From NCBI GenBank assembly GCA_932294295.1, contig OW028579.1:32375250-32439249 (forward strand): a stretch of DNA of 64,000 nt, given 5' to 3'. Below are positions 2,101 to 63,922 of the stretch, piece after piece (position 1 is the first letter of the stretch; the number at the start of each line of letters is the position of its first letter). Under the pieces are notes generated by a model. The model saw only the letters and a list, made by a program, of their open reading frames with translations. It did no database searches and was not told the DNA's origin. A program made the translations under genes and the position numbers. Source of the DNA: Alitta virens. Taxonomy: Eukaryota; Annelida; Polychaeta; Phyllodocida; Nereididae.

Positions 2101-2106
2101 GACGAT
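2101..2106 (+). repeat. Target-site duplication, left copy (GACGAT)
   Basis: The six bases GACGAT abut the left end of the giant inverted repeat and recur in direct orientation at 19873-19878, immediately outside the right end. A preceding T is also shared, so the duplication could be counted as 7 bp. This is the expected scar of staggered-cut integration of the whole 17.8-kb unit. Confidence 0.8.
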
Positions 2107-2139
2107 ACTACTATATGGGGTAGGTTTGATACCGGTATC

Positions 2140-2760
2140 TTTTTCCATGCTAATTTTCATCCTCGATGTCCTCTAGCCGACCCCCCCAAAAATCACCAAA
2201 AATTTGACCCCACTTGACCTTTCTCTTTGCACCCAGGCACTTCCCATGCTAACTTTCATCGACCCCCCGTCCCCCTTGATCCCACTTGACCCCCCACTTG
2301 ACCCTAATTGACCCTCTTTGATCCCCTGTCCCCATGCTAACTTTCATCGATCCCCATATTTAATTAGCACACAGGCACTTCCCATGCTAACTTTCATCGA
2401 CCCCCCCCCCCTTGATCCCACTTGACCCCCTTTTGATCCCCTGTCCCCATGCTAACTTTCATTGACCCCCCCCTTGATCCCAATATTTAATTAGCACACG
2501 GGCACTTCCCATGCTACCTTTCATCAACCCCCCACCCCCACCCCCCCCTGGATCCCACTTGACCCTACTTGACCCCTCTTCCCATGCTAACTTTCATCGA
2601 CCCCCCCCTTGATCCCACTTGACCCCCCTTTGATCCCCTGTCCCCATGCTAACTTTCATTGACCCCCCCTCCTTGATCCCAATATTTAATTAGCACAGGG
2701 GCACTTCCCATACTAACTTTCATTCTCTATGTCCTCTAGCCCCACCCCCCCCCCCCCCCC
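2140..2760 (+). repeat. C-rich subterminal tandem repeats, left arm
   Basis: Irregular tandem units combine CCATGCTAACTTTCATCGA, C-runs of 5-16, CTTGATCCCACTTGACCCC, and ATTTAATTAGCACA followed by GGGCACTT. Unit order and length vary, as in arrays expanded by slippage or unequal exchange. The C-run lengths differ between arms but the differences cancel. Confidence 0.75.
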
Positions 2761-3277
2761 ATTTGCATCCCCCCTGTCTAATAAGCCACTCCCTCTCTAA
2801 TAAGTCACTCTAATCTACTCAGATATATAAACAGAAGTCTAGAACAAATATAGATAGGCTAGACAATTCTAGACAGATATTCTAGGCTAGACAACTAAAC
2901 GCTACAGTCCTCTGACCTAAAAAGCATAGATCTGCTATTTTTACCCTTGTGACTCACCAGAGGGGAGACCAGTGTTATTTACCCTAGTCAAAGGTCATGA
3001 CCTCACCAGGTGAGAGCTGTCACCTCGATCCTCTCCTTTGAAGGATGATAGTTTAGCCTAATGCTTACAATTCTACCCCTTTGATCATTGTTGACAGTGA
3101 AAATTGACATTATTTCACATGAGTCAGTTTCTAAAAATAAATTACCTATATGCATTACTATTACATACTAGGCTCATTATACTTAAGTATGGATACATCC
3201 TACCCCCTGTCTATCCTTTGATGTTATTTGATGGTAACTGATCAATGTCTCACTACTTCATCTTATGACTCATCTGT

Positions 3278-3595
3278 TTGGATCTAAAAATACTCTATAA
3301 CAGCAACATGATCATACATGCTGAACAAAAAATAACTCTGGTCTCTATAAATAAAGAGAGAGAAACATTTTATCATTCAGAAATGGAAAGACACACAGAT
3401 AAAATCAGTCTTAAAAAGCTTACTGTTACTTTCAATACTGAGAAAAACATAATTCACCCAATAATTCCTGATGATGAAAGTAGAAATGGCATAATTTGGC
3501 AACTTGAAGCTATGAGGAGATTGAATGAAGAAGGAACAAAGGATCATGACCCCAATGAAGAGACTGGTATGAGTCATTCACTGCAGGTCATCTAA
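3278..3595 (+). CDS. Protein-like open frame in the element (left arm), unknown
   Basis: This 105-codon frame is the only stretch of the arm with protein-like composition, being rich in Lys, Glu, Asp and Ile in its second half (for example ...PIIPDDESRNGIIWQLEAMR...). It lacks an ATG at its beginning; the first ATG is at codon 11. A possible acceptor AG lies near 3304 and a weak donor (CTG|GTATGA) at 3567, so it could be a captured host exon. I recognise no family and see no promoter. Chance is a real alternative. Confidence 0.2.
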   Translation: MDLKILYNSNMIIHAEQKITLVSINKERETFYHSEMERHTDKISLKKLTVTFNTEKNIIHPIIPDDESRNGIIWQLEAMRRLNEEGTKDHDPNEETGMSHSLQVI

Positions 3596-3618
3596 GGTCA
3601 TCAACTGTAGGTCATCTA

Positions 3619-5215
3619 AGGTCATCAAGTATGCTGCATGTCCAGACTTGTTTGGCCCTCCCATGCATATAGACCAATCAAATTACACACTAATCTCATT
3701 CATACAGCACAATGATCTCAGACAGGATATTGTTATTCATATGAGACCTGAATCCCTCCTCACTAGAAAGACCATTATGGACCACATGGAAAAATGTATG
3801 ACCACCGGTCAGGGCCCAAGGGCATGGACAATTTTACTTCTTGTCATAAAAATAACAAAAATAAAACATCAACTAAAAAAAAAGGCAAACAACAAAAACA
3901 TAAATCTATCTTAATTATAAAACACAAGCTTAATTGTGAAATTTTAAAATGAAATTACAAGAGTAAAAAAAATTAATGACTAACGATATGCATCAATTTA
4001 CATACTCAGACCTCATAATTTCACAACAACTTAACATACCTCGTTAATGGTCGTAAGTTAAAATTACATAACCTGTACATAGCTCATTAATGATCATTAT
4101 ATTTTTCTTTTGTGTCAAGGTGTTCATAATTAACACGTTTACATAACTCATAGGTCATCAAGTATGCTGCATGTCCAGACTTGTTTGGCCCTCCCATGCA
4201 CATAGACCAATCAAATTACACACTAATCTCATTCATACAGCACAATGATCTCAGACAGGATATTGTTATTCATATGAGACCTGAATCCCTCCTCACTAGA
4301 AAGACCATTATGGACCACATGGAAAAATGTATGACCACCGGTCAGGGCCCAAGGGCATGTACAATTTTACTTCTTGTCATAAAAATAACAAAAATAAAAC
4401 ATCAACTAAAAAAAAAGGCAAACAACAAAAACATAAATCTATCTTAATTATAAAACACAAGCTTAATTGTGAAATTTTAAAATGAAATTACAAGAGTAAA
4501 AAAAATTAATGACTAATGATATGCATCAATTTACATACTCAGACCTCATAATTTCACAACAACTTACATACCTCGTTAATGGTCGTAAGTTAAAATTACA
4601 TAACCTGTACATAGCTCATTAATGATCATTATATTTTTCTTTTGTGTCAAGGTGTTCATAATTAACACGTTTACATAACTCATAGGTCATCAAGTATGCT
4701 GCATGTCCAGACTTGTTTGGCCCTCCCATGCACATAGACCAATCAAATTACACACTAATCTCATTCATACAGCACAATGATCTCAGACAGGATATTGTTA
4801 TTCATATGAGACCTGAATCCCTCCTCACTAGAAAGACCATTATGGACCACATGGAAAAATGTATGACCACCGGTCAGGGCCCAAGGGCATGGACAATTTT
4901 ACTTCTTGTCATAAAAATAACAAAAATAAAACATCAACTAAAAAAAAAGGCAAACAACAAAAACATAAATCTATCTTAATTATAAAACACAAGCTTAATT
5001 GTGAAATTTTAAAATGAAATTACAAGAGTAAAAAAAATTAATGACTAACGATATGCATCAATTTACATACTCAGACCTCATAATTTCACAACAACTTAAC
5101 ATACCTCGTTAATGGTCGTAAGTTAAAATTACATAACCTGTACATAGCTCATTAATGATCATTATATTTTTCTTTTGTGTCAAGGTGTTCATAATTAACA
5201 CGTTTACATAACTCA
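3619..5215 (+). repeat. Three tandem copies of a 532-533-bp repeat, left arm
   Basis: Copies begin at 3619, 4152 and 4684 with AGGTCATCAAGTATGCTGCA and end before 5216. They differ by only a few substitutions and a one-base indel. Each contains an 88-codon frame starting at a TTG, identical except for Trp/Cys in the middle copy. I regard this frame as non-coding. Confidence 0.85.
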
Positions 5216-7130
5216 TTAATGTTGTATAATGTCACATGTCCACATTGGTACACAGATAACTCATCATAATTTCACAATCGCAATCGGTATTCACCAATAC
5301 ATAGACATAACCAGGCCACCATTGACTCATCACAATTTCACAATGACCATTGATATTCATCAATGCACAGACAATTTCACAAGAGGTTAGTCTCACATCA
5401 GTGCACAACAGTGTAGAGAACATGTCAAGACATGTATGACCACCTGTCTGGGGCCCAGGAGCATGGACACTTCTACCTATTGTCATAAAAAGAATAAAAA
5501 TAAAACATAACTAGAAAAAAATTAATATATGAAATAAAAAGGCAAACAATAAAAACACAAACCTATCTTAATTATAAAACACTAACTTATTACTGAAATG
5601 TTAAAATGAAATTACAAGAGTAAAAAAAATTAATGACTAATGATATGTATCAATGCACAGACATATTCAGACCCTCTATGACACTCAGATGACTCATCAT
5701 AATTTCACAATATTTTTACAAAAGTAAAACATTTAATTTTACAATCTGCAAAACTACAAAAACATTAAAAAAATGTCAACTGATCAATTTTAAAGATTAA
5801 AACTTAAATATAAAATAACAATTGTCTTCATTAAAGAAACAGACTAATTGAACTGACCGTAGGGAAGCGTATATTGACTTATTTGTTTCTCAATCTGTAA
5901 TTAAATCACCTCAATAACCCTTGTAGTGTAAGCCTACTTTGAAAAAAGCTAAAGTAAAACAGAAAAACAGCTGTGTACTGTTAGGCAGTGTTAGCCACTT
6001 AAAAGACTCATCATAATTTCACAAAGGGTTGGTTCCACATCAGTGCACACAGCATGTCCACAATGGCTGACTATATGCATCAACGCACAGATATGGCCAG
6101 ACATCTATGACCACCTGGTCAGTGTCTTAGCTATATTCAAAATCCTATATGTTGTTGAGATATGGTTCAATGATTCATTTTCAAGAGATCATGTCTTCTA
6201 TCCTATATGGAGAAGGTATGTTTCACATCAGTGCAAAGAAAGTTCATTGTCATAAAAAGAACAAACAAGAAATACATATAACTAACAAAACAAACTGCAA
6301 AACATGCCCCTATAATAAAAATTTAATTTTGAAATTTAAAAAGTTGCATCTTATCACTATATTAAAAATTAAAACTTAAATATTAAATTACAAAATAACC
6401 ATTGTCTAAGTTAAAGTAACTGTTTAAACTGACCATAGAGAAACATATTTTGACTTACTTTTTTCTCCCATCTGCAATTAAATCACTTCAGTATACACTA
6501 TCCTTGCAGCCACTTTAATTGTATTATTTGTAAAAAATGTTACCAAAAATTAATATGACATAAAGTTACCAAAAACCAACACTACATACTTATTTCTCTA
6601 ATTTAAAATCAAATACAAACGATGCAAACCTTTTATCCAAAACTAAACAAAAGTCAATAAAACGGAGAATTTCAGAAAAACTGTGCACTTAGTAGATTGC
6701 ACAGTGGGAGTTAGGCAGTGTTTTAATATCAATGCACATGAATGCAGTGAGTATGTGAGGAAAATAAAACTTAGAACTTAAATATATAAACTACATGCTC
6801 AACAACAAGATATAATCATAACTGAAAAAAAAAACATATCCTAAAACATATATCTAATTTTGAAACTATTTCAGATTTACTTGTAAAATACATTAAAAAT
6901 TAATACGACATAAAGTTACCAAAAATAAACACAACATACTTATTTATCTAATTTAAAATTAAATACAAAAGATGCAAACCTTTTATCCAAAATTAAACAA
7001 AAGTCAATAAAACAGAAAATGTAAGAAAATCTGTGCACTGTTAACCACTTAGTAGACTGCACAATGGGAGTTAGGCAGTGGTTTCATATCAATGCACGTG
7101 AATGCAGTGAGTAAGTGAGGAAATTAAAAC
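5216..7130 (+). repeat. Decayed relatives of the 532-bp repeat and a 350-bp duplication
   Basis: Strings such as GACTCATCATAATTTCAC, ATGACCACC, TTGTCATAAAAA and GATATG(T/C)ATCAAT recur with increasing divergence towards the centre. A second duplication pairs about 6541-6790 with 6893-7130, both containing GATGCAAACCTTTTATCCAA. The mirror lies at about 14849-16763. Confidence 0.6.
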
Positions 7131-10100
7131 TTAGAACTAAAATATATATATAAAACTACATTCTCAAAAACAAGAAATAATCATAAATAGGAAAAACACA
7201 TATACAAAAACATGTATCTAATTTTGAATCTATTTCAGATATGTAAAATCAAAATTAGAAAAATTAAAAAATTAAATATTAAAATATGCAGAATGTCAAA
7301 CTTCCCCAAATTTCATAACCATAATGACTCTTAAGATAGTTTTCCCCTTAAATATATGTTGAGGAAAGCATCCCCTATTTGTCCCAATTGCTGCCAGTTT
7401 CTCCATACCTGCATGATCAGAGGGCCAGCAATGGGGGCTATAATTCAATACCAACATAATCAAAGTAGTATATGCCAGTATACTATCCCAATATTTACAC
7501 AACATGCATCCACAAATTGCTATAAGCATTTTTTAAGATGCAATGCAATTGTGAAAATATATTATAAGATAGTTTAGTTTCTTGTATGGAAGGTAGTCAC
7601 AAAGCAAGCCTGCTCAGGTAGTTCAACCAACTTGAAAGGTGAGAGGTTCATATATTACTCACTAATAATACAAATAATCAGAAATATATTGTTCACATTT
7701 TACTGAAAATGTATGAATAAAAGATAGCATAACTGATATATACATAGAATAATTTATCCTACTCAAGAACAATAATACAATATAGTGTTAAGTTTGAAAA
7801 AAAAACAAGATCTGCATAACTTCTAAATTATCATTTGGCAGTTAAAGAGTAACTCAGTGACTCTGAGTGGAAAAGGTTACACAAATTGTATTTTCTTCAT
7901 TATATTGCAACTAACATTAATATCTCCAAGCTATTGTTTCGATCAAACAATGCAACAATGCTTTCCTCTTTGATGCAAGTAGAGACTTCAAATGTGGTAT
8001 ATGCAAGCAAGGCAATCATCACATGACATTTTATTCTGATCTATAATCCTCAGTTGAGACATAGGCACAGAGATAAAGTCAAATATGTTATTTAATAGTC
8101 ATGTTCTAGCAGTTGTATGATCACCCAAAGAGATTATGTTTAATGATAGGAATAACCGATATTTCTTGCCTAAACCTTTGCTTAACTAGACTTGGTGGAA
8201 GTGATTGTACAGAGTAGCTTGTGTATAACCTGTGCTAATGATATACAATATAAAACATTGCAGCTGGTGATGTATTATTTCTGAGAAATGAATGCATCAA
8301 CTACTAACCGCTAGCAATATTGTTTATAAAAAGTTTCTATTACCCTGAGTTTGTTGTACTTCATTTAGATGGCAAATTTATTTGGCATTTTGCTGTGGTT
8401 GGCCGACTCTCTAAGCAACTGATATTAATTCAAATGAACAGGTCAAGTCTTGTTTATGACAGATTTAAATTTCATAGAATAACATGCATTATATTCTAAG
8501 CATTAAACCTTAATAGTGTGCATAATTGTTTTACAATTGTCTACTGGCATTGTCCAAGAAGCAGAGGGTTAAACACTGATGTCCAGAAAGTGAGACATGT
8601 TTCCTTAACTTTATTATTGTATAGACACTGTCAATTGCTTAGTAGACTCAATAAGTATCTTATTTCTCAAATTAAAAAATTGCATAATAAAGGTAAAAAA
8701 AATATGCCTGCAAAATACACCAAACTTATTTATTACCGTATCAAAATTCTAAGATGTACATATATTACTCAAATGTAACACAAAACAAAAGCCCAATATC
8801 AAAGCTAAATAATTACAAAATTTATAAAACCAAATTACTATGACCCCTCTTTAAGCTGAGCAAGACTAGACCATCTTTATTATTTCTCACTTCCCCTAAT
8901 TTATTACTCCCCTTAATCTGCACTGGCTACTTTAGCCATCTTGTTCATAAATAATCTCTCTTAGGCAGTTTCTCCATTCTGACAAAAATATATCACAGTG
9001 TATGGTGGCATGCATCCCATATTATGTAGATCACACAGAATTCATCACCACCTCCATGATCAAAGGGTCACCTACCTGCATACTGTCCATTATATTTTTT
9101 CAGTAGGCATTCAGTAATTAGCAATTGGATGCAATGAAATTGTGCCAATATATAAGTCAGTTACAAATTTAGTTTTACCCAGTCAACTTTAGTTCACCAG
9201 TTCTAACTTAAAAGGTGAGAGAATTGACAAATTATCAATATATCAGGTAACATATTTTACCACAACATTTATTGTATAATTTGTAAAATATTGATACATG
9301 ACTGTAATATTTGTTACAAAAAATGTGCATGGCTTCATGATAAAATGTAAACTTATGTCTCAAATTTAATATAAAAATACAAAGCTAAAAACCTTAATAT
9401 TACAAACTATGTGGTTGGCCTTCTGGGTTCCTATAGGTGATGACAAATGTCTCTTAAATAGTTTTTCATTATAATCTAACTTAAACCTTTAGCAATATGT
9501 AGTGGAATGCACTAAATTCTAGCAGCAATCAAACATATGTCCCATGGACATGGTCTCTGTTATCATAAGATACACTTACATATTTTGAAATTTAAAGAGT
9601 AAACTTACAAAAAAGCATAATTATTTCCATCAATTAGATTCCAATCAAATGTTATAAGAAAATATTCTCTAAATCTAAAAAAGCTTAAGACTTTTAAAGC
9701 TTAAATTTTTCTCTCTCCCTAGTTCATTACACTAGTCTGCACCATCAATCACATGTTTTGTGAGCATACATGCCCCAGGGTATTTCACTTTTGTTGTTAT
9801 GAAGAAAACTACAAAAATGTCTTAAACAAAAAATTATATATAATAAATATTGCAAGATATGTGTTTGCACACCTCCTATGCACCTGCTGGCAGCAGTGAA
9901 GGCAGAATTCACTGCTATGATATCAAGGGGTCATAATATTATATCGACATAATTTCCACAATGTATTTATAAAACAGGTACTTAATGCCAAGCATTTGTG
10001 AGATGCAATGACATTTTTCGGTGTGTAAAAATAGAAGACTTCAGTTTCATAAAAGTCAATCACAAATTAAATCTGCTAGCTCAAAATAACTACAGTTTAT

Positions 10101-10918
10101 CAGTACTTTTTGTCAGAGGGGAGAGATAAATATAAATATTATTCCTTAACTGTCAACCTTACAATGGTTTAAAGACAGACATTTATGCCAGGAACAAATC
10201 AGAAACTAATTATAGTTTTCACTTTAAACTGAAACTTCACACAAGTTAATACATTTTGTTAAGACATGAACTAACTTTCAATTAAATTAATCTGCCAAAA
10301 AAATGTTATACAAATATTTATATATATATAGAATAAAATAAGATTTTTAGGAATGAAAATTACAAGTTGGTACTATTGTAAACACATTTATTATATAACT
10401 GGTTTTCCTTACTGTAAAACATTGGCAAGTACTACAAATTATTCACTACATGGATCATTACTAGAATTGTGGATTGTCATCAATATAAATCAGTCTGTTT
10501 CCACTAGAAAATTCAATATCATGAGGTATGGACAATAACTTTGAACTTCTTTTTATAAGCCCAGCAAAGCGTCTGCTGGATGATTTCCATTAAATCATTA
10601 TAATGTAATTAGAGTGTGTATCAGTGACTTTGGGTAAAAATTTTACATTTAAAAATCATGAGAGCCAAATGTAGAGCACCTTCTTCATTTTCTTCCAGGT
10701 ATATGAAAAGGACCACATCCAAGTTCCTGATAATAATTCTGCATTAGTTTGTTTCATCTTTTATTACAAAAGATACAAAATAGCCAGTTATCTGATAATT
10801 TAAAAAAGACATGACTTATGGAACACAGTGCTCCTGAACAAAAATAAATCTGTTGGAATTCTAAATATTTCATGTGCTCAGTTAAAAATGTATATGCATG
10901 TGCTTGTGAAAAGGGTGG
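7131..10918. other. AT-rich inner part of the left arm
   Basis: I see no gene, splice structure or recognisable transposon domain. Short open frames (7296-7577, 8518-8778, 10353-10538) lack coding character. The mirror is 11061-14848. Confidence 0.5.
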
Positions 10919-11062
10919 GGGCACCCACGCCGCAATCTATGAGACCGCCCGGCGCAAGCACGGGCGCGAGGGCGGATTCCATTTAGCATGACAGAGTGGA
11001 ATCCGCCCTCGCGCCCGTGCTTGCGCCCGGGCGGTCTCATAGATTGCGGCATGGGTGCCCCC
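10919..11062. repeat. GC-rich hairpin tip and 15-nt central loop
   Basis: Complementary GC-rich blocks (GGCGCAAGCACGGGCGCGAG on the left, its complement on the right) flank the asymmetric spacer TTTAGCATGACAGAG at 10982-10996. The tip is strikingly GC-rich inside an AT-rich element. It carries one one-base length difference and one substitution between arms. A single strand could fold here into a hairpin. Confidence 0.8.
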
Positions 11063-14000
11063 ACCCTTTTCACAAGCACATGCATATACATTTTTAACTG
11101 AGCACATGAAATATTTAGAATTCCAACAGATTTATTTTTGTTCAGGAGCACTGTGTTCCATAAGTCATGTCTTTTTAAAATTATCAGATAACTGGCTATT
11201 TTGTATCTTTTGTAATAAAAGATGAAACAAACTAATGCAGAATTATTATCAGGAACTTGGATGTGGTCCTTTTCATATACCTGGAAGAAAATGAAGAAGG
11301 TGCTCTACATTTGGCTCTCATGATTTTTAAATGTAAAATTTTTACCCAAAGTCACTGATACACACTCTAATTACATTATAATGATTTAATGGAAATCATC
11401 CAGCAGACGCTTTGCTGGGCTTATAAAAAGAAGTTCAAAGTTATTGTCCATACCTCATGATATTGAATTTTCTAGTGGAAACAGACTGATTTATATTGAT
11501 GACAATCCACAATTCTAGTAATGATCCATGTAGTGAATAATTTGTAGTACTTGCCAATGTTTTACAGTAAGGAAAACCAGTTATATAATAAATGTGTTTA
11601 CAATAGTACCAACTTGTAATTTTCATTCCTAAAAATCTTATTTTATTCTATATATATATAAATATTTGTATAACATTTTTTTGGCAGATTAATTTAATTG
11701 AAAGTTAGTTCATGTCTTAACAAAATGTATTAACTTGTGTGAAGTTTCAGTTTAAAGTGAAAACTATAATTAGTTTCTGATTTGTTCCTGGCATAAATGT
11801 CTGTCTTTAAACCATTGTAAGGTTGACAGTTAAGGAATAATATTTATATTTATCTCTCCCCTCTGACAAAAAGTACTGATAAACTGTAGTTATTTTGAGC
11901 TAGCAGATTTAATTTGTGATTGACTTTTATGAAACTGAAGTCTTCTATTTTTACACACCGAAAAATGTCATTGCATCTCACAAATGCTTGGCATTAAGTA
12001 CCTGTTTTATAAATACATTGTGGAAATTATGTCGATATAATATTATGACCCCTTGATATCATAGCAGTGAATTCTGCCTTCACTGCTGCCAGCAGGTGCA
12101 TAGGAGGTGTGCAAACACATATCTTGCAATATTTATTATATATAATTTTTTGTTTAAGACATTTTTGTAGTTTTCTTCATAACAACAAAAGTGAAATACC
12201 CTGGGGCATGTATGCTCACAAAACATGTGATTGATGGTGCAGACTAGTGTAATGAACTAGGGAGAGAGAAAAATTTAGGCTTTAAAAGTCTTAAGCTTTT
12301 TTAGATTTAGAGAATATTTTCTTATAACATTTGATTGGAATCTAATTGATGGAAATAATTATGCTTTTTTGTAAGTTTACTCTTTAAATTTCAAAATATG
12401 TAAGTGTATCTTATGATAACAGAGACCATGTCCATGGGACATATGTTTGATTGCTGCTAGAATTTAGTGCATTCCACTACATATTGCTAAAGGTTTAAGT
12501 TAGATTATAATGAAAAACTATTTAAGAGACATTTGTCATCACCTATAGGAACCCAGAAGGCCAACCACATAGTTTGTAATATTAAGGTTTTTAGCTTTGT
12601 ATTTTTATATTAAATTTGAGACATAAGTTTACATTTTATCATGAAGCCATGCACATTTTTTGTAACAAATATTACAGTCATGTATCAATATTTTACAAAT
12701 TATACAATAAATGTTGTGGTAAAATATGTTACCTGATATATTGATAATTTGTCAATTCTCTCACCTTTTAAGTTAGAACTGGTGAACTAAAGTTGACTGG
12801 GTAAAACTAAATTTGTAACTGACTTATATATTGGCACAATTTCATTGCATCCAATTGCTAATTACTGAATGCCTACTGAAAAAATATAATGGACAGTATG
12901 CAGGTAGGTGACCCTTTGATCATGGAGGTGGTGATGAATTCTGTGTGATCTACATAATATGGGATGCATGCCACCATACACTGTGATATATTTTTGTCAG
13001 AATGGAGAAACTGCCTAAGAGAGATTATTTATGAACAAGATGGCTAAAGTAGCCAGTGCAGATTAAGGGGAGTAATAAATTAGGGGAAGTGAGAAATAAT
13101 AAAGATGGTCTAGTCTTGCTCAGCTTAAAGAGGGGTCATAGTAATTTGGTTTTATAAATTTTGTAATTATTTAGCTTTGATATTGGGCTTTTGTTTTGTG
13201 TTACATTTGAGTAATATATGTACATCTTAGAATTTTGATACGGTAATAAATAAGTTTGGTGTATTTTGCAGGCATATTTTTTTTACCTTTATTATGCAAT
13301 TTTTTAATTTGAGAAATAAGATACTTATTGAGTCTACTAAGCAATTGACAGTGTCTATACAATAATAAAGTTAAGGAAACATGTCTCACTTTCTGGACAT
13401 CAGTGTTTAACCCTCTGCTTCTTGGACAATGCCAGTAGACAATTGTAAAACAATTATGCACACTATTAAGGTTTAATGCTTAGAATATAATGCATGTTAT
13501 TCTATGAAATTTAAATCTGTCATAAACAAGACTTGACCTGTTCATTTGAATTAATATCAGTTGCTTAGAGAGTCGGCCAACCACAGCAAAATGCCAAATA
13601 AATTTGCCATCTAAATGAAGTACAACAAACTCAGGGTAATAGAAACTTTTTATAAACAATATTGCTAGCGGTTAGTAGTTGATGCATTCATTTCTCAGAA
13701 ATAATACATCACCAGCTGCAATGTTTTATATTGTATATCATTAGCACAGGTTATACACAAGCTACTCTGTACAATCACTTCCACCAAGTCTAGTTAAGCA
13801 AAGGTTTAGGCAAGAAATATCGGTTATTCCTATCATTAAACATAATCTCTTTGGGTGATCATACAACTGCTAGAACATGACTATTAAATAACATATTTGA
13901 CTTTATCTCTGTGCCTATGTCTCAACTGAGGATTATAGATCAGAATAAAATGTCATGTGATGATTGCCTTGCTTGCATATACCACATTTGAAGTCTCTAC

Positions 14001-16763
14001 TTGCATCAAAGAGGAAAGCATTGTTGCATTGTTTGATCGAAACAATAGCTTGGAGATATTAATGTTAGTTGCAATATAATGAAGAAAATACAATTTGTGT
14101 AACCTTTTCCACTCAGAGTCACTGAGTTACTCTTTAACTGCCAAATGATAATTTAGAAGTTATGCAGATCTTGTTTTTTTTTCAAACTTAACACTATATT
14201 GTATTATTGTTCTTGAGTAGGATAAATTATTCTATGTATATATCAGTTATGCTATCTTTTATTCATACATTTTCAGTAAAATGTGAACAATATATTTCTG
14301 ATTATTTGTATTATTAGTGAGTAATATATGAACCTCTCACCTTTCAAGTTGGTTGAACTACCTGAGCAGGCTTGCTTTGTGACTACCTTCCATACAAGAA
14401 ACTAAACTATCTTATAATATATTTTCACAATTGCATTGCATCTTAAAAAATGCTTATAGCAATTTGTGGATGCATGTTGTGTAAATATTGGGATAGTATA
14501 CTGGCATATACTACTTTGATTATGTTGGTATTGAATTATAGCCCCCATTGCTGGCCCTCTGATCATGCAGGTATGGAGAAACTGGCAGCAATTGGGACAA
14601 ATAGGGGATGCTTTCCTCAACATATATTTAAGGGGAAAACTATCTTAAGAGTCATTATGGTTATGAAATTTGGGGAAGTTTGACATTCTGCATATTTTAA
14701 TATTTAATTTTTTAATTTTTCTAATTTTGATTTTACATATCTGAAATAGATTCAAAATTAGATACATGTTTTTGTATATGTGTTTTTCCTATTTATGATT
14801 ATTTCTTGTTTTTGAGAATGTAGTTTTATATATATTTTTTAGTTCTAAGTTTTAATTTCCTCACTTACTCACTGCATTCACGTGCATTGATATGAAACCA
14901 CTGCCTAACTCCCATTGTGCAGTCTACTAAGTGGTTAACAGTGCACAGATTTTCTTACATTTTCTGTTTTATTGACTTTTGTTTAATTTTGGATAAAAGG
15001 TTTGCATCTTTTGTATTTAATTTTAAATTAGATAAATAAGTATGTTGTGTTTATTTTTGGTAACTTTATGTCGTATTAATTTTTAATGTATTTTACAAGT
15101 AAATCTGAAATAGTTTCAAAATTAGATATATGTTTTAGGATATGTTTTTTTTTTCAGTTATGATTATATCTTGTTGTTGAGCATGTAGTTTATATATTTA
15201 AGTTCTAAGTTTTATTTTCCTCACATACTCACTGCATTCATGTGCATTGATATTAAAACACTGCCTAACTCCCACTGTGCAATCTACTAAGTGCACAGTT
15301 TTTCTGAAATTCTCCGTTTTATTGACTTTTGTTTAGTTTTGGATAAAAGGTTTGCATCGTTTGTATTTGATTTTAAATTAGAGAAATAAGTATGTAGTGT
15401 TGGTTTTTGGTAACTTTATGTCATATTAATTTTTGGTAACATTTTTTACAAATAATACAATTAAAGTGGCTGCAAGGATAGTGTATACTGAAGTGATTTA
15501 ATTGCAGATGGGAGAAAAAAGTAAGTCAAAATATGTTTCTCTATGGTCAGTTTAAACAGTTACTTTAACTTAGACAATGGTTATTTTGTAATTTAATATT
15601 TAAGTTTTAATTTTTAATATAGTGATAAGATGCAACTTTTTAAATTTCAAAATTAAATTTTTATTATAGGGGCATGTTTTGCAGTTTGTTTTGTTAGTTA
15701 TATGTATTTCTTGTTTGTTCTTTTTATGACAATGAACTTTCTTTGCACTGATGTGAAACATACCTTCTCCATATAGGATAGAAGACATGATCTCTTGAAA
15801 ATGAATCATTGAACCATATCTCAACAACATATAGGATTTTGAATATAGCTAAGACACTGACCAGGTGGTCATAGATGTCTGGCCATATCTGTGCGTTGAT
15901 GCATATAGTCAGCCATTGTGGACATGCTGTGTGCACTGATGTGGAACCAACCCTTTGTGAAATTATGATGAGTCTTTTAAGTGGCTAACACTGCCTAACA
16001 GTACACAGCTGTTTTTCTGTTTTACTTTAGCTTTTTTCAAAGTAGGCTTACACTACAAGGGTTATTGAGGTGATTTAATTACAGATTGAGAAACAAATAA
16101 GTCAATATACGCTTCCCTACGGTCAGTTCAATTAGTCTGTTTCTTTAATGAAGACAATTGTTATTTTATATTTAAGTTTTAATCTTTAAAATTGATCAGT
16201 TGACATTTTTTTAATGTTTTTGTAGTTTTGCAGATTGTAAAATTAAATGTTTTACTTTTGTAAAAATATTGTGAAATTATGATGAGTCATCTGAGTGTCA
16301 TAGAGGGTCTGAATATGTCTGTGCATTGATACATATCATTAGTCATTAATTTTTTTTACTCTTGTAATTTCATTTTAACATTTCAGTAATAAGTTAGTGT
16401 TTTATAATTAAGATAGGTTTGTGTTTTTATTGTTTGCCTTTTTATTTCATATATTAATTTTTTTCTAGTTATGTTTTATTTTTATTCTTTTTATGACAAT
16501 AGGTAGAAGTGTCCATGCTCCTGGGCCCCAGACAGGTGGTCATACATGTCTTGACATGTTCTCTACACTGTTGTGCACTGATGTGAGACTAACCTCTTGT
16601 GAAATTGTCTGTGCATTGATGAATATCAATGGTCATTGTGAAATTGTGATGAGTCAATGGTGGCCTGGTTATGTCTATGTATTGGTGAATACCGATTGCG
16701 ATTGTGAAATTATGATGAGTTATCTGTGTACCAATGTGGACATGTGACATTATACAACATTAA

Positions 16764-18360
16764 TGAGTTATGTAAACGTGTTAATTATGAACACCTTGAC
16801 ACAAAAGAAAAATATAATGATCATTAATGAGCTATGTACAGGTTATGTAATTTTAACTTACGACCATTAACGAGGTATGTTAAGTTGTTGTGAAATTATG
16901 AGGTCTGAGTATGTAAATTGATGCATATCGTTAGTCATTAATTTTTTTTACTCTTGTAATTTCATTTTAAAATTTCACAATTAAGCTTGTGTTTTATAAT
17001 TAAGATAGATTTATGTTTTTGTTGTTTGCCTTTTTTTTTAGTTGATGTTTTATTTTTGTTATTTTTATGACAAGAAGTAAAATTGTCCATGCCCTTGGGC
17101 CCTGACCGGTGGTCATACATTTTTCCATGTGGTCCATAATGGTCTTTCTAGTGAGGAGGGATTCAGGTCTCATATGAATAACAATATCCTGTCTGAGATC
17201 ATTGTGCTGTATGAATGAGATTAGTGTGTAATTTGATTGGTCTATGTGCATGGGAGGGCCAAACAAGTCTGGACATGCAGCATACTTGATGACCTATGAG
17301 TTATGTAAACGTGTTAATTATGAACACCTTGACACAAAAGAAAAATATAATGATCATTAATGAGCTATGTACAGGTTATGTAATTTTAACTTACGACCAT
17401 TAACGAGGTATGTAAGTTGTTGTGAAATTATGAGGTCTGAGTATGTAAATTGATGCATATCATTAGTCATTAATTTTTTTTACTCTTGTAATTTCATTTT
17501 AAAATTTCACAATTAAGCTTGTGTTTTATAATTAAGATAGATTTATGTTTTTGTTGTTTGCCTTTTTTTTTAGTTGATGTTTTATTTTTGTTATTTTTAT
17601 GACAAGAAGTAAAATTGTACATGCCCTTGGGCCCTGACCGGTGGTCATACATTTTTCCATGTGGTCCATAATGGTCTTTCTAGTGAGGAGGGATTCAGGT
17701 CTCATATGAATAACAATATCCTGTCTGAGATCATTGTGCTGTATGAATGAGATTAGTGTGTAATTTGATTGGTCTATGTGCATGGGAGGGCCAAACAAGT
17801 CTGGACATGCAGCATACTTGATGACCTATGAGTTATGTAAACGTGTTAATTATGAACACCTTGACACAAAAGAAAAATATAATGATCATTAATGAGCTAT
17901 GTACAGGTTATGTAATTTTAACTTACGACCATTAACGAGGTATGTTAAGTTGTTGTGAAATTATGAGGTCTGAGTATGTAAATTGATGCATATCGTTAGT
18001 CATTAATTTTTTTTACTCTTGTAATTTCATTTTAAAATTTCACAATTAAGCTTGTGTTTTATAATTAAGATAGATTTATGTTTTTGTTGTTTGCCTTTTT
18101 TTTTAGTTGATGTTTTATTTTTGTTATTTTTATGACAAGAAGTAAAATTGTCCATGCCCTTGGGCCCTGACCGGTGGTCATACATTTTTCCATGTGGTCC
18201 ATAATGGTCTTTCTAGTGAGGAGGGATTCAGGTCTCATATGAATAACAATATCCTGTCTGAGATCATTGTGCTGTATGAATGAGATTAGTGTGTAATTTG
18301 ATTGGTCTATATGCATGGGAGGGCCAAACAAGTCTGGACATGCAGCATACTTGATGACCT
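16764..18360 (-). repeat. Three tandem copies of a 532-533-bp repeat, right arm
   Basis: This is the mirror of the left-arm triplet, including the same distinguishing substitution in the middle copy. The triplication therefore predates formation of the palindrome, or the arms have been homogenised. Confidence 0.85.
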
Positions 18361-18383
18361 TAGATGACCTACAGTTGATGACC

Positions 18384-18701
18384 TTAGATGACCTGCAGTG
18401 AATGACTCATACCAGTCTCTTCATTGGGGTCATGATCCTTTGTTCCTTCTTCATTCAATCTCCTCATAGCTTCAAGTTGCCAAATTATGCCATTTCTACT
18501 TTCATCATCAGGAATTATTGGGTGAATTATGTTTTTCTCAGTATTGAAAGTAACAGTAAGCTTTTTAAGACTGATTTTATCTGTGTGTCTTTCCATTTCT
18601 GAATGATAAAATGTTTCTCTCTCTTTATTTATAGAGACCAGAGTTATTTTTTGTTCAGCATGTATGATCATGTTGCTGTTATAGAGTATTTTTAGATCCA
18701 A
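18384..18701 (-). CDS. Mirror copy of the protein-like open frame (right arm)
   Basis: The translation is identical to the left-arm copy. It exists because the arms are inverted copies, so it is not independent evidence that the frame is coding. Confidence 0.2.
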   Translation of the reverse strand: MDLKILYNSNMIIHAEQKITLVSINKERETFYHSEMERHTDKISLKKLTVTFNTEKNIIHPIIPDDESRNGIIWQLEAMRRLNEEGTKDHDPNEETGMSHSLQVI

Positions 18702-19218
18702 ACAGATGAGTCATAAGATGAAGTAGTGAGACATTGATCAGTTACCATCAAATAACATCAAAGGATAGACAGGGGGTAGGATGTATCCATACTTAAGTAT
18801 AATGAGCCTAGTATGTAATAGTAATGCATATAGGTAATTTATTTTTAGAAACTGACTCATGTGAAATAATGTCAATTTTCACTGTCAACAATGATCAAAG
18901 GGGTAGAATTGTAAGCATTAGGCTAAACTATCATCCTTCAAAGGAGAGGATCGAGGTGACAGCTCTCACCTGGTGAGGTCATGACCTTTGACTAGGGTAA
19001 ATAACACTGGTCTCCCCTCTGGTGAGTCACAAGGGTAAAAATAGCAGATCTATGCTTTTTAGGTCAGAGGACTGTAGCGTTTAGTTGTCTAGCCTAGAAT
19101 ATCTGTCTAGAATTGTCTAGCCTATCTATATTTGTTCTAGACTTCTGTTTATATATCTGAGTAGATTAGAGTGACTTATTAGAGAGGGAGTGGCTTATTA
19201 GACAGGGGGGATGCAAAT

Positions 19219-19839
19219 GGGGGGGGGGGGGTGGGGCTAGAGGACATAGAGAATGAAAGTTAGTATGGGAAGTGCCCCTGTGCTAATTAAATATTGGGAT
19301 CAAGGAGGGGGGGTCAATGAAAGTTAGCATGGGGACAGGGGATCAAAGGGGGGTCAAGTGGGATCAAGGGGGGGGTCGATGAAAGTTAGCATGGGAAGAG
19401 GGGTCAAGTAGGGTCAAGTGGGATCCAGGGGGGGGTGGGGGTGGGGGGTTGATGAAAGGTAGCATGGGAAGTGCCCGTGTGCTAATTAAATATTGGGATC
19501 AAGGGGGGGGGGTCAATGAAAGTTAGCATGGGGACAGGGGATCAAAAGGGGGTCAAGTGGGATCAAGGGGGGGGGGGGTCGATGAAAGTTAGCATGGGAA
19601 GTGCCTGTGTGCTAATTAAATATGGGGATCGATGAAAGTTAGCATGGGGACAGGGGATCAAAGAGGGTCAATTAGGGTCAAGTGGGGGGTCAAGTGGGAT
19701 CAAGGGGGACGGGGGGTCGATGAAAGTTAGCATGGGAAGTGCCTGGGTGCAAAGAGAAAGGTCAAGTGGGGTCAAATTTTTGGTGATTTTTGGGGGGGTC
19801 GGCTAGAGGACATCGAGGATGAAAATTAGCATGGAAAAA
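19219..19839 (-). repeat. G-rich subterminal tandem repeats, right arm
   Basis: This is the mirror of the left subterminal array and is G-rich on the plus strand. It contains several runs of 7-13 G separated by short spacers, which could form G-quadruplexes. Confidence 0.75.
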
Positions 19840-19872
19840 GATACCGGTATCAAACCTACCCCATATAGTAGT

Positions 19873-19878
19873 GACGAT
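19873..19878 (+). repeat. Target-site duplication, right copy (GACGAT)
   Basis: This is a direct repeat of 2101-2106, abutting the right end of the inverted repeat. Confidence 0.8.
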
Positions 19879-19914
19879 CTGATGAGGTTTAGAGGACTGC
19901 ATTTTCAATCAATC

Positions 19915-20064
19915 TGTCAATCAATCAGTGAATCAATCAATCATTAAATCAATCAATCATTCATTCATTCAATCATTCATTCATTTAATCAATCAGTCAT
20001 TCAATCAATCAATCAATTAATCATTTTATGTATGTATGTATGTATGTATGTATCTATCGGTCTG

Positions 20065-20097
<33 letters not shown>

Positions 20098-20190
20098 TTA
20101 TCTGCCTATCTATCTATCTGTCTGTCTATATGTCCAGCTGTCTATCTATCTATCTATTTGTCTATCTGTCTATCTATCTATCTATCGTTA
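19915..20190 (+). repeat. Compound tetranucleotide microsatellite
   Basis: Impure (AATC)n/(ATTC)n is followed by (TATG)n at about 20028-20052 and (TATC)n with TCTG variants to about 20186. Open frames across it only translate the repeat. Confidence 0.9.

Positions 20191-20318: not shown

Positions 20319-63922
<43,604 letters not shown>

Follow-up and report, generated by a model that had tools for sequence, protein, structure and literature searches.

The 64-kb window analysed here, the whole of positions 32,375,250 to 32,439,249 of Alitta virens contig OW028579.1, contains a palindromic element of 17,766 bp flanked on each side by GACGAT. Self-BLAST of the window aligned 2107-19872 with its own inverse over 17,774 columns at 99.831% identity, with 14 mismatches and 10 gap openings, a comparison that scores every difference twice, once per arm. 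When arm was aligned against arm, 17 columns differed: six were changes in C-run length, three were substitutions outside the central stem (7143/14836, 9701/12278 and 10802/11177) and eight lay in the central stem and loop. The palindrome was confirmed as real, and chance is excluded as its source by its length and its recurrence elsewhere in the genome. An initial annotation had described a near-perfect palindrome of about 17.8 kb with a GACGAT duplication, which these data bear out; its limits of 2101-19878 included both duplications. Leaving aside the centre and the C runs, the 8.8-kb arms differ by three substitutions, which speaks for a recent insertion. Several features were delimited by comparison with four Maverick/Polinton partner elements from the same genome (L021, L025, L034 and L035), described below.

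2101-2106, no strand: left target-site duplication GACGAT (direct reading)
2107-19872, no strand: entire palindromic element, 17,766 bp, arm identity 99.83% (self-BLAST and arm alignment)
2107-2112, forward strand: terminal trinucleotide repeat (ACT)2, mirrored by (AGT)2 at 19867-19872 (direct reading)
2107-3019, forward strand: Maverick terminal repeat region with C-rich subrepeats, mirrored at about 18960-19872; it matches both kinds of partner-element end (BLASTN to L021, L025, L034 and L035)
3270-3794, forward strand: Maverick polymerase-side unique end, mirrored at about 18185-18709, with a remnant open reading frame (ORF) at 3269-3595 (BLASTN/TBLASTN, ORF list)
3619-5216, forward strand: three direct repeats of about 533 bp each, including a Maverick ORF fragment, mirrored at about 16763-18360 (repeat search, BLAST)
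5217-10905, forward strand: AT-rich arm interior with no recognised gene among the frames scanned, mirrored at about 11074-16762
10906-10980, forward strand: left side of the GC-rich central stem, the right side being at about 10998-11073 (sequence; fold z -31.8)
10981-10997, forward strand: central loop ATTTAGCATGACAGAGT, 17 nt (sequence; the pattern lies inside 34 of 42 pairs of an arm tag, in both orientations)
19873-19878, no strand: right target-site duplication GACGAT (direct reading)

No ORF of at least 150 amino acids with an ATG, GTG or TTG start lies inside 2107-19872, and a Pfam scan of 10 of the 25 arm frames (stop-to-stop, at least 55 amino acids) gave nothing above the curated cut-off, the best weak match having an E value of 0.087. 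By these scans the palindrome encodes neither a family-B DNA polymerase (PolB) nor an rve integrase (no genome-wide integrase search was made), in line with the earlier description of an element without an enzyme gene, and the idea of a coding element was dropped. Rfam (gathering thresholds) and ARAGORN gave no matches in the window. The central 201 bases fold at -132.5 kcal/mol, compared with a shuffled mean of -37.8.

To assess the distribution of the element, we searched the window's own assembly (G000; 671 Mb, 23 contigs). The 18-bp terminus had 23 matches, compared with none in a reversed control, and 14 of these are the ends of seven palindromes (that of the window among them) measuring 14.5-17.8 kb. 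A tag from the arm interior had 90 matches, 45 per strand (control, 0), all with two mismatches to the pattern and with the same genome letters in the 40 matches shown. The tag occurs mainly as inverted pairs: 42 plus-minus pairs 2.2-4.5 kb apart, 15 of them at an identical spacing of 3866, and six singles, with about 0.015 pairs expected at random. The loop pattern had 36 matches (31 exact; control, 0), one of which lay outside every tag pair. Among the 34 pairs with a loop, 22 carry it in plus and 12 in minus orientation (a single pair with both was assigned to the orientation of the first), although loop orientation is inseparable from insertion orientation because the arms are symmetric.

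A terminus pattern had 154 matches (74 and 80 by strand; control, 0), and element sizes and class counts given here cover the 100 of these that were listed. They form 48 pairs and four unpaired termini; 30 of the pairs contain a tag pair, two a single tag and 16 no tag. All 30 tag pairs on C1-C9 are enclosed by a terminal pair. They were classed as palindromes by the presence of a tag pair at a single arm position, and 11 of the 30 were read whole or in part. In total, 28 of the 30 measure 15.2-18.4 kb, and the other two 22.6 and 23.5 kb (C9:34093229-34115856 and C2:2391831-2415314). In both of the latter, 12.7 kb separate the left tag from the left end, compared with 6.3 and 6.9 kb on the right, as if about 6 kb had been gained in one arm of each.

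Target-site duplications accompany nearly all of the elements read at both ends. All seven palindromes found with the 18-bp terminus have one (GACGAT, CATGTT, CATGCC, CATAAC, GGTACA, CTCGTG and CATGGC). A second subfamily, with terminus ACTACTAAGAGG (96% over 162 bp), includes three palindromes read whole, two of them with a duplication, and eight further terminus pairs read at their ends only have perfect duplications in every case, three being palindromic by their ends and five not. Including the C4:26.16 Mb element (CTTATT), perfect 6-bp duplications, as in Mavericks, flank 18 of the 19 elements read at both ends, palindromes and partners alike. When the C1:61.41 Mb element and one CATGGC are removed, the flanks join into a single open reverse-transcriptase frame of a long interspersed nuclear element (LINE; motifs by eye), a paralogous empty site.

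Some ends vary. The C7:20.6 Mb copy has one extra ACT at its left end, that is, (ACT)3, and the C1:61.41 Mb copy (L010) has 87 additional bases of another terminus type ahead of CATGGC at its right end; the C4:26.16 Mb element has this same type at its left end. Two palindromes (L010 right end; L052 1490-2001) thus carry a third terminus type, ACTACTAAGAGGGGTAGGTCTGATCCCTCCCTAG, at one end, either in addition to the usual end or in its place, as if Maverick lineages swap ends. Two identical 2.2-kb stretches 310 kb apart each contain a 226-bp mini-element (L026 1001-1226 and L027 1001-1226) that has the same 18-bp termini, a 54-bp inverted repeat (96%) and the duplication GCTAGA.

These observations bear on whether the palindrome is an assembly or library artefact, produced by a missed hairpin adapter or a foldback read. 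Foldback artefacts are indeed described for long reads in the available part of PMC12870357. That explanation is scarcely credible here, given that 6-bp duplications link the left and right flanks at 18 of 19 places, that there are 42 inverted tag pairs, 15 of them at identical spacing, and that substitutions common to both arms differ between copies. The resemblance of such elements to assembly errors is nevertheless a caution for repeat annotation.

The partner elements connect the palindrome to a known class. L021 (C1:35296937), read over 10 kb, opens with the palindrome's 18-bp terminus and contains a 1,074-amino-acid frame matching DNA_pol_B_2 (E = 1.6e-45) and a 402-amino-acid frame matching rve (8.2e-16) and Chromo (6e-07). 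A protein search found 32 relatives of its polymerase; the three with an organism name come from the bivalves Argopecten and Pinctada and from the sea spider Nymphon. L025, L034 and L035 represent the opposite Maverick end, with about 0.8-1 kb in common with the arm followed by other genes. Arm positions 1164-1596 match L021 1327-1729 at 88%, and 1594-1688 match L021 2055-2149 at 97%, the latter match recurring inside other 533-bp repeats. Because the arm matches both the terminal region and the unique end of L021, the palindrome carries the polymerase-side end twice; judged by sequence similarity, the outermost 1.7 kb of each arm represents the polymerase-side end of an L021-type Maverick. 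The palindrome thus shares with an autonomous-looking element the 18-bp terminus, the terminal repeat over about 0.9 kb and unique sequence from the polymerase side, as a non-autonomous derivative would. The earlier suggestion of a giant non-autonomous Maverick/Polinton relative is supported by the shared terminus, the 6-bp duplications and the PolB/integrase partner, and the two finds it had proposed looking for, further copies with 6-bp duplications and an autonomous element sharing the terminus, were both made. Its alternative of a new class gives way to a derivative of a known one.

We also considered whether the element is a DNA transposon from a different superfamily, of the foldback or long-terminal-inverted-repeat (long-TIR) kind, that makes 6-bp duplications and is Maverick-like only at its ends. 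Duplications of 6 bp occur outside Mavericks too, and the end letters of the palindrome differ from published vertebrate Maverick motifs. The match to Mavericks, however, extends past the tips: it takes in about 0.9 kb of the terminal repeat as well as ORF-bearing unique sequence from the polymerase side. In addition, PolB is encoded by partners that have these ends, one of them (L021) also encoding an integrase. This origin is therefore very improbable.

Other features of the partners are recorded here for completeness. Past the integrase frame, L021 has a minisatellite whose frames read KKGVNNKPK-like repeats. ORF 117-851 of L025 has a Walker-like motif by eye and 18 homologues, one with PF04665 (A32-type ATPase) at 34% identity; it has no Pfam match of its own, and a PDB search with it was empty. 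A 97% identical protein is encoded on a public contig 924 bp long (ENA source, 9 members), and by that identity a near relative of the L025-type Maverick is to be found elsewhere in public data. A PHROGs search with six proteins gave only two weak matches.

To compare palindromes with polymerase-bearing elements, we used a 1-kb PolB probe. Among the 40 candidates scored out of 171, 23 places had 96-100% identity, two of them being partial or split, and another 17 had 66-69%. Among the terminus matches listed, a 96-100% place lies in 13 of the 16 untagged elements and in none of the 30 tag-pair or two single-tag elements. The 16 untagged elements comprise three of 15.6-15.9 kb, eleven of 19.0-19.7 kb, one of 20.9 kb and one of 23.3 kb. 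Thus, 28 of the 30 tag-pair elements are shorter than 11 of the 13 PolB-bearing ones (19.0-19.7 kb). The 15.6-kb elements were examined as a possible monomeric parent, a proposal that was weakened: C10:30755780, C6:16040205 and C4:44272536 have arm-like left ends, but those listed lack the arm tag. A genome search with PF03175 gave 189 matches with 72 of 1,321 candidates scored, and 0 in 14 control genomes; many of these sit in open frames of 1,282-1,552 amino acids, and other PolB lineages therefore abound.

The arms of each copy are closely matched. We compared three arm stretches in ten palindromes at 43 informative columns, counting indels and setting missing stretches aside; one 7-base deletion supplies 7 of the 43. 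Left and right arms agree in 396 of 398 element cells, and both discordant cells fall in one column of a related pair on C1. Copies differ from each other by at most 26 substitutions in about 3.7 kb, whereas the arms within one copy differ by 0-3. In a tree, both arms of most copies group together, with low support; the exceptions are three near-identical sets (the window and C12; C4:7.05 Mb and C11; the C1 pair). The arms of a copy share variants, whereas arms simply passed on as a pair would keep each variant in the one arm where it arose; new copies therefore start with nearly identical arms. In the C1 pair (L030/L031 and L032/L033), the single discordant column is swapped in keeping with an inverted flank; the 30 bases right of C1:26886369 are, by eye, an inverted copy of the left flank of C1:17095381, a palindrome 9.8 Mb away.

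The centre also varies. In C3:46634905-46652690 it has been re-made: the stem follows the usual sequence as far as GGGTCAG and then passes into a 533-bp repeat, where it folds back around a loop of roughly 75-83 nt, with the junction mirrored on the opposite side. This is most simply explained if the junction was already in place when the second arm was written. In the second subfamily, the loop is flanked on each side by an additional block of about 11 bases, and GGG stands at both loop sides. In the window, C12 and C5 (23.3 Mb), all read on both sides, a GG/GGG asymmetry beside the loop is in phase with the loop, and the single side read in C4 (26.2 Mb) agrees. Asymmetry between copies persists only close to the loop. 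Such asymmetry would be predicted by foldback priming, because the annealed part would not be recopied.

Sex-chromosome palindromes have arms kept alike by gene conversion, and long nearby inverted repeats are good conversion substrates. The same Maverick-derived palindrome could therefore have had its arms kept alike after insertion by conversion and not by replicative foldback copying. Conversion would likewise yield element-specific variants common to both arms, which counts against our preference for foldback copying. However, private arm differences (1-3 in 3.3-3.7 kb) remain in eight of the ten copies, the other two having none in 3.7 and 1.1 kb, so that conversion is at least incomplete, and foldback priming fits the re-made centre with its mirrored junction and the asymmetries beside the loop more simply. 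We consider the conversion reading unlikely.

Collectively, the results make it probable that the element belongs to a resident Maverick/Polinton lineage as its non-autonomous, snap-back (palindromic) satellite and is integrated in trans: it has one genome end twice, inverted, around a loop. We infer helper dependence, the originating event and foldback copying as the homogenising step. A Maverick-derived replicating molecule would have lost its far end, and its free 3′ strand would have folded back at the GC-rich centre and been extended to the surviving terminal origin, leaving the polymerase-side end at both ends. Each terminus would retain a protein-primed replication origin, protein priming being expected from the polymerase family, and an integrase site, so that the Maverick polymerase could copy the palindrome and the Maverick integrase insert it with a 6-bp duplication. 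The palindrome would then spread as a separate lineage, its arms re-made from each other during copying. The initial annotation had suggested that the symmetry could arise by replication through a covalently closed hairpin end; the hairpin would instead be a central snap-back and not a resolved telomere end. A telomere-resolvase origin was set aside, the loop being central (no resolvase search was made).

Several observations weigh against this satellite reading. About 5.7 kb per arm has no match in the four 10-kb partner pieces (L021, L025, L034 and L035), so that a Maverick origin can be asserted for only part of the arm. No monomeric element reading through the palindrome centre was found. 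Three listed elements of 15.6-15.9 kb carry neither arm tag nor PolB, and an arm-like left end occurs in C6:16040205 and C4:44272536 (both ends read) and in C10:30755780, inside which the 3.4 kb read is partner sequence of the opposite end. Six arm tags have no partner. C1:26886369, of the second subfamily, lacks a target-site duplication, and 2 of the 18 duplication-bearing elements require an adjusted end (C7:20.6 Mb and C1:61.41 Mb). The centres at C4:7.05 and C5:44.9 Mb are asymmetric, and those at C1:61.41, C5:23.35 and C7:20.64 Mb have small one-sided losses; all of these may be later deletions. No capsid gene was identified by profile in the partner sequence read, outside which the middles of the elements lie. 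Finally, the ends read ACT..AGT, compared with AGT..ACT or AG..CT in the vertebrate Mavericks covered by the accessible text of PMC8097293.

The lengths of the palindromes, 28 of 30 falling below the PolB-bearing length, do no more than suggest that helper packaging limits their size. A bolder proposal, which we put forward tentatively and regard as doubtful, is a self-sustaining satellite virus without enzyme genes, homogenised by foldback copying in every cycle and perhaps packaged by its helper, whose arms could by convergent transcription yield long double-stranded RNA against the helper's polymerase-side region. The genome has 42 tag pairs and 23 PolB places; if the proposal were true, the satellite would outnumber its helper lineage in the germ line and the palindrome would act as a hyperparasite or as an antiviral locus built into the host.

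To our knowledge, the replication of Mavericks has been deduced mainly from their genes. A family with re-made arms and fossil centres would be a chromosomal record of end copying and strand foldback, making protein-primed replication testable in an animal, and would offer a natural case of a helper and its satellite residing in the same animal genome. Giant palindromes are usually regarded as unstable; this family indicates that they can become abundant.

Elsewhere in the window, TCAA and TATC microsatellites occupy 19905-20186, starting 27 bp past the right duplication. A 67-bp unit is repeated in 54 tandem copies at 21495-25041; it looks tRNA-gene-like by eye, although ARAGORN and Rfam report no tRNA. 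Three overlapping frames at 26846-29810 resemble, by eye, a LINE endonuclease/reverse transcriptase, and 34953-35511 is a minisatellite of 18 copies of a 31-bp unit (96%).

Among known systems, Foldback, Galileo and long-TIR Mutator-like elements also have long inverted arms and subterminal repeats and are mobilised in trans. Their duplication lengths and transposases differ from those of the palindrome, which has a 6-bp duplication and partner enzymes of the rve integrase and PolB types, and their arms are several times shorter, whereas those of the palindrome nearly meet in the middle. A yeast killer-plasmid derivative, the 'Hairpin plasmid' of Kikuchi (1985), is said to have arisen by deletion from a linear element whose polymerase is protein-primed and to take a hairpin form; it is reportedly cytoplasmic, without integration.

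With Maverick/Polinton elements (adintovirus-like), the palindrome shares the 6-bp duplication and long terminal repeats, its terminal trinucleotide repeat resembles theirs in kind, and partner elements in the same genome encode PolB, L021 also the rve integrase. It differs in having no polymerase, integrase or recognised capsid gene, and in its near-perfect symmetry with the polymerase-side end at both ends. We found no description of palindromic Maverick derivatives in the portions consulted of the open-licence PMC literature, subscription papers lying outside the search. The terminal motif, (ACT)2 and once (ACT)3, is of the same kind as the vertebrate Maverick motifs (AGT)2, (AG)3 and (AC)3A given in the available text (PMC8097293), although the letters differ. 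It also resembles in kind the ends of adenoviruses, where a trinucleotide present in duplicate is used for jumping back (PMC4974454).

The nearest well-studied parallel is provided by the defective snapback (self-complementary) genomes of adeno-associated virus (AAV), including the 5′-SBG form, which are described in the consulted sections of PMC8235507 as palindromic, helper-replicated molecules that hold one end twice around a symmetric or asymmetric centre. The palindrome likewise holds one genome end twice. The AAV molecules, by contrast, arise through parvovirus replication and come from cultured particles, whereas those described here are integrated copies, present in dozens, with subfamilies of their own. 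The family would thus be the equivalent, in an animal, of snap-back parasites described for laboratory viruses.

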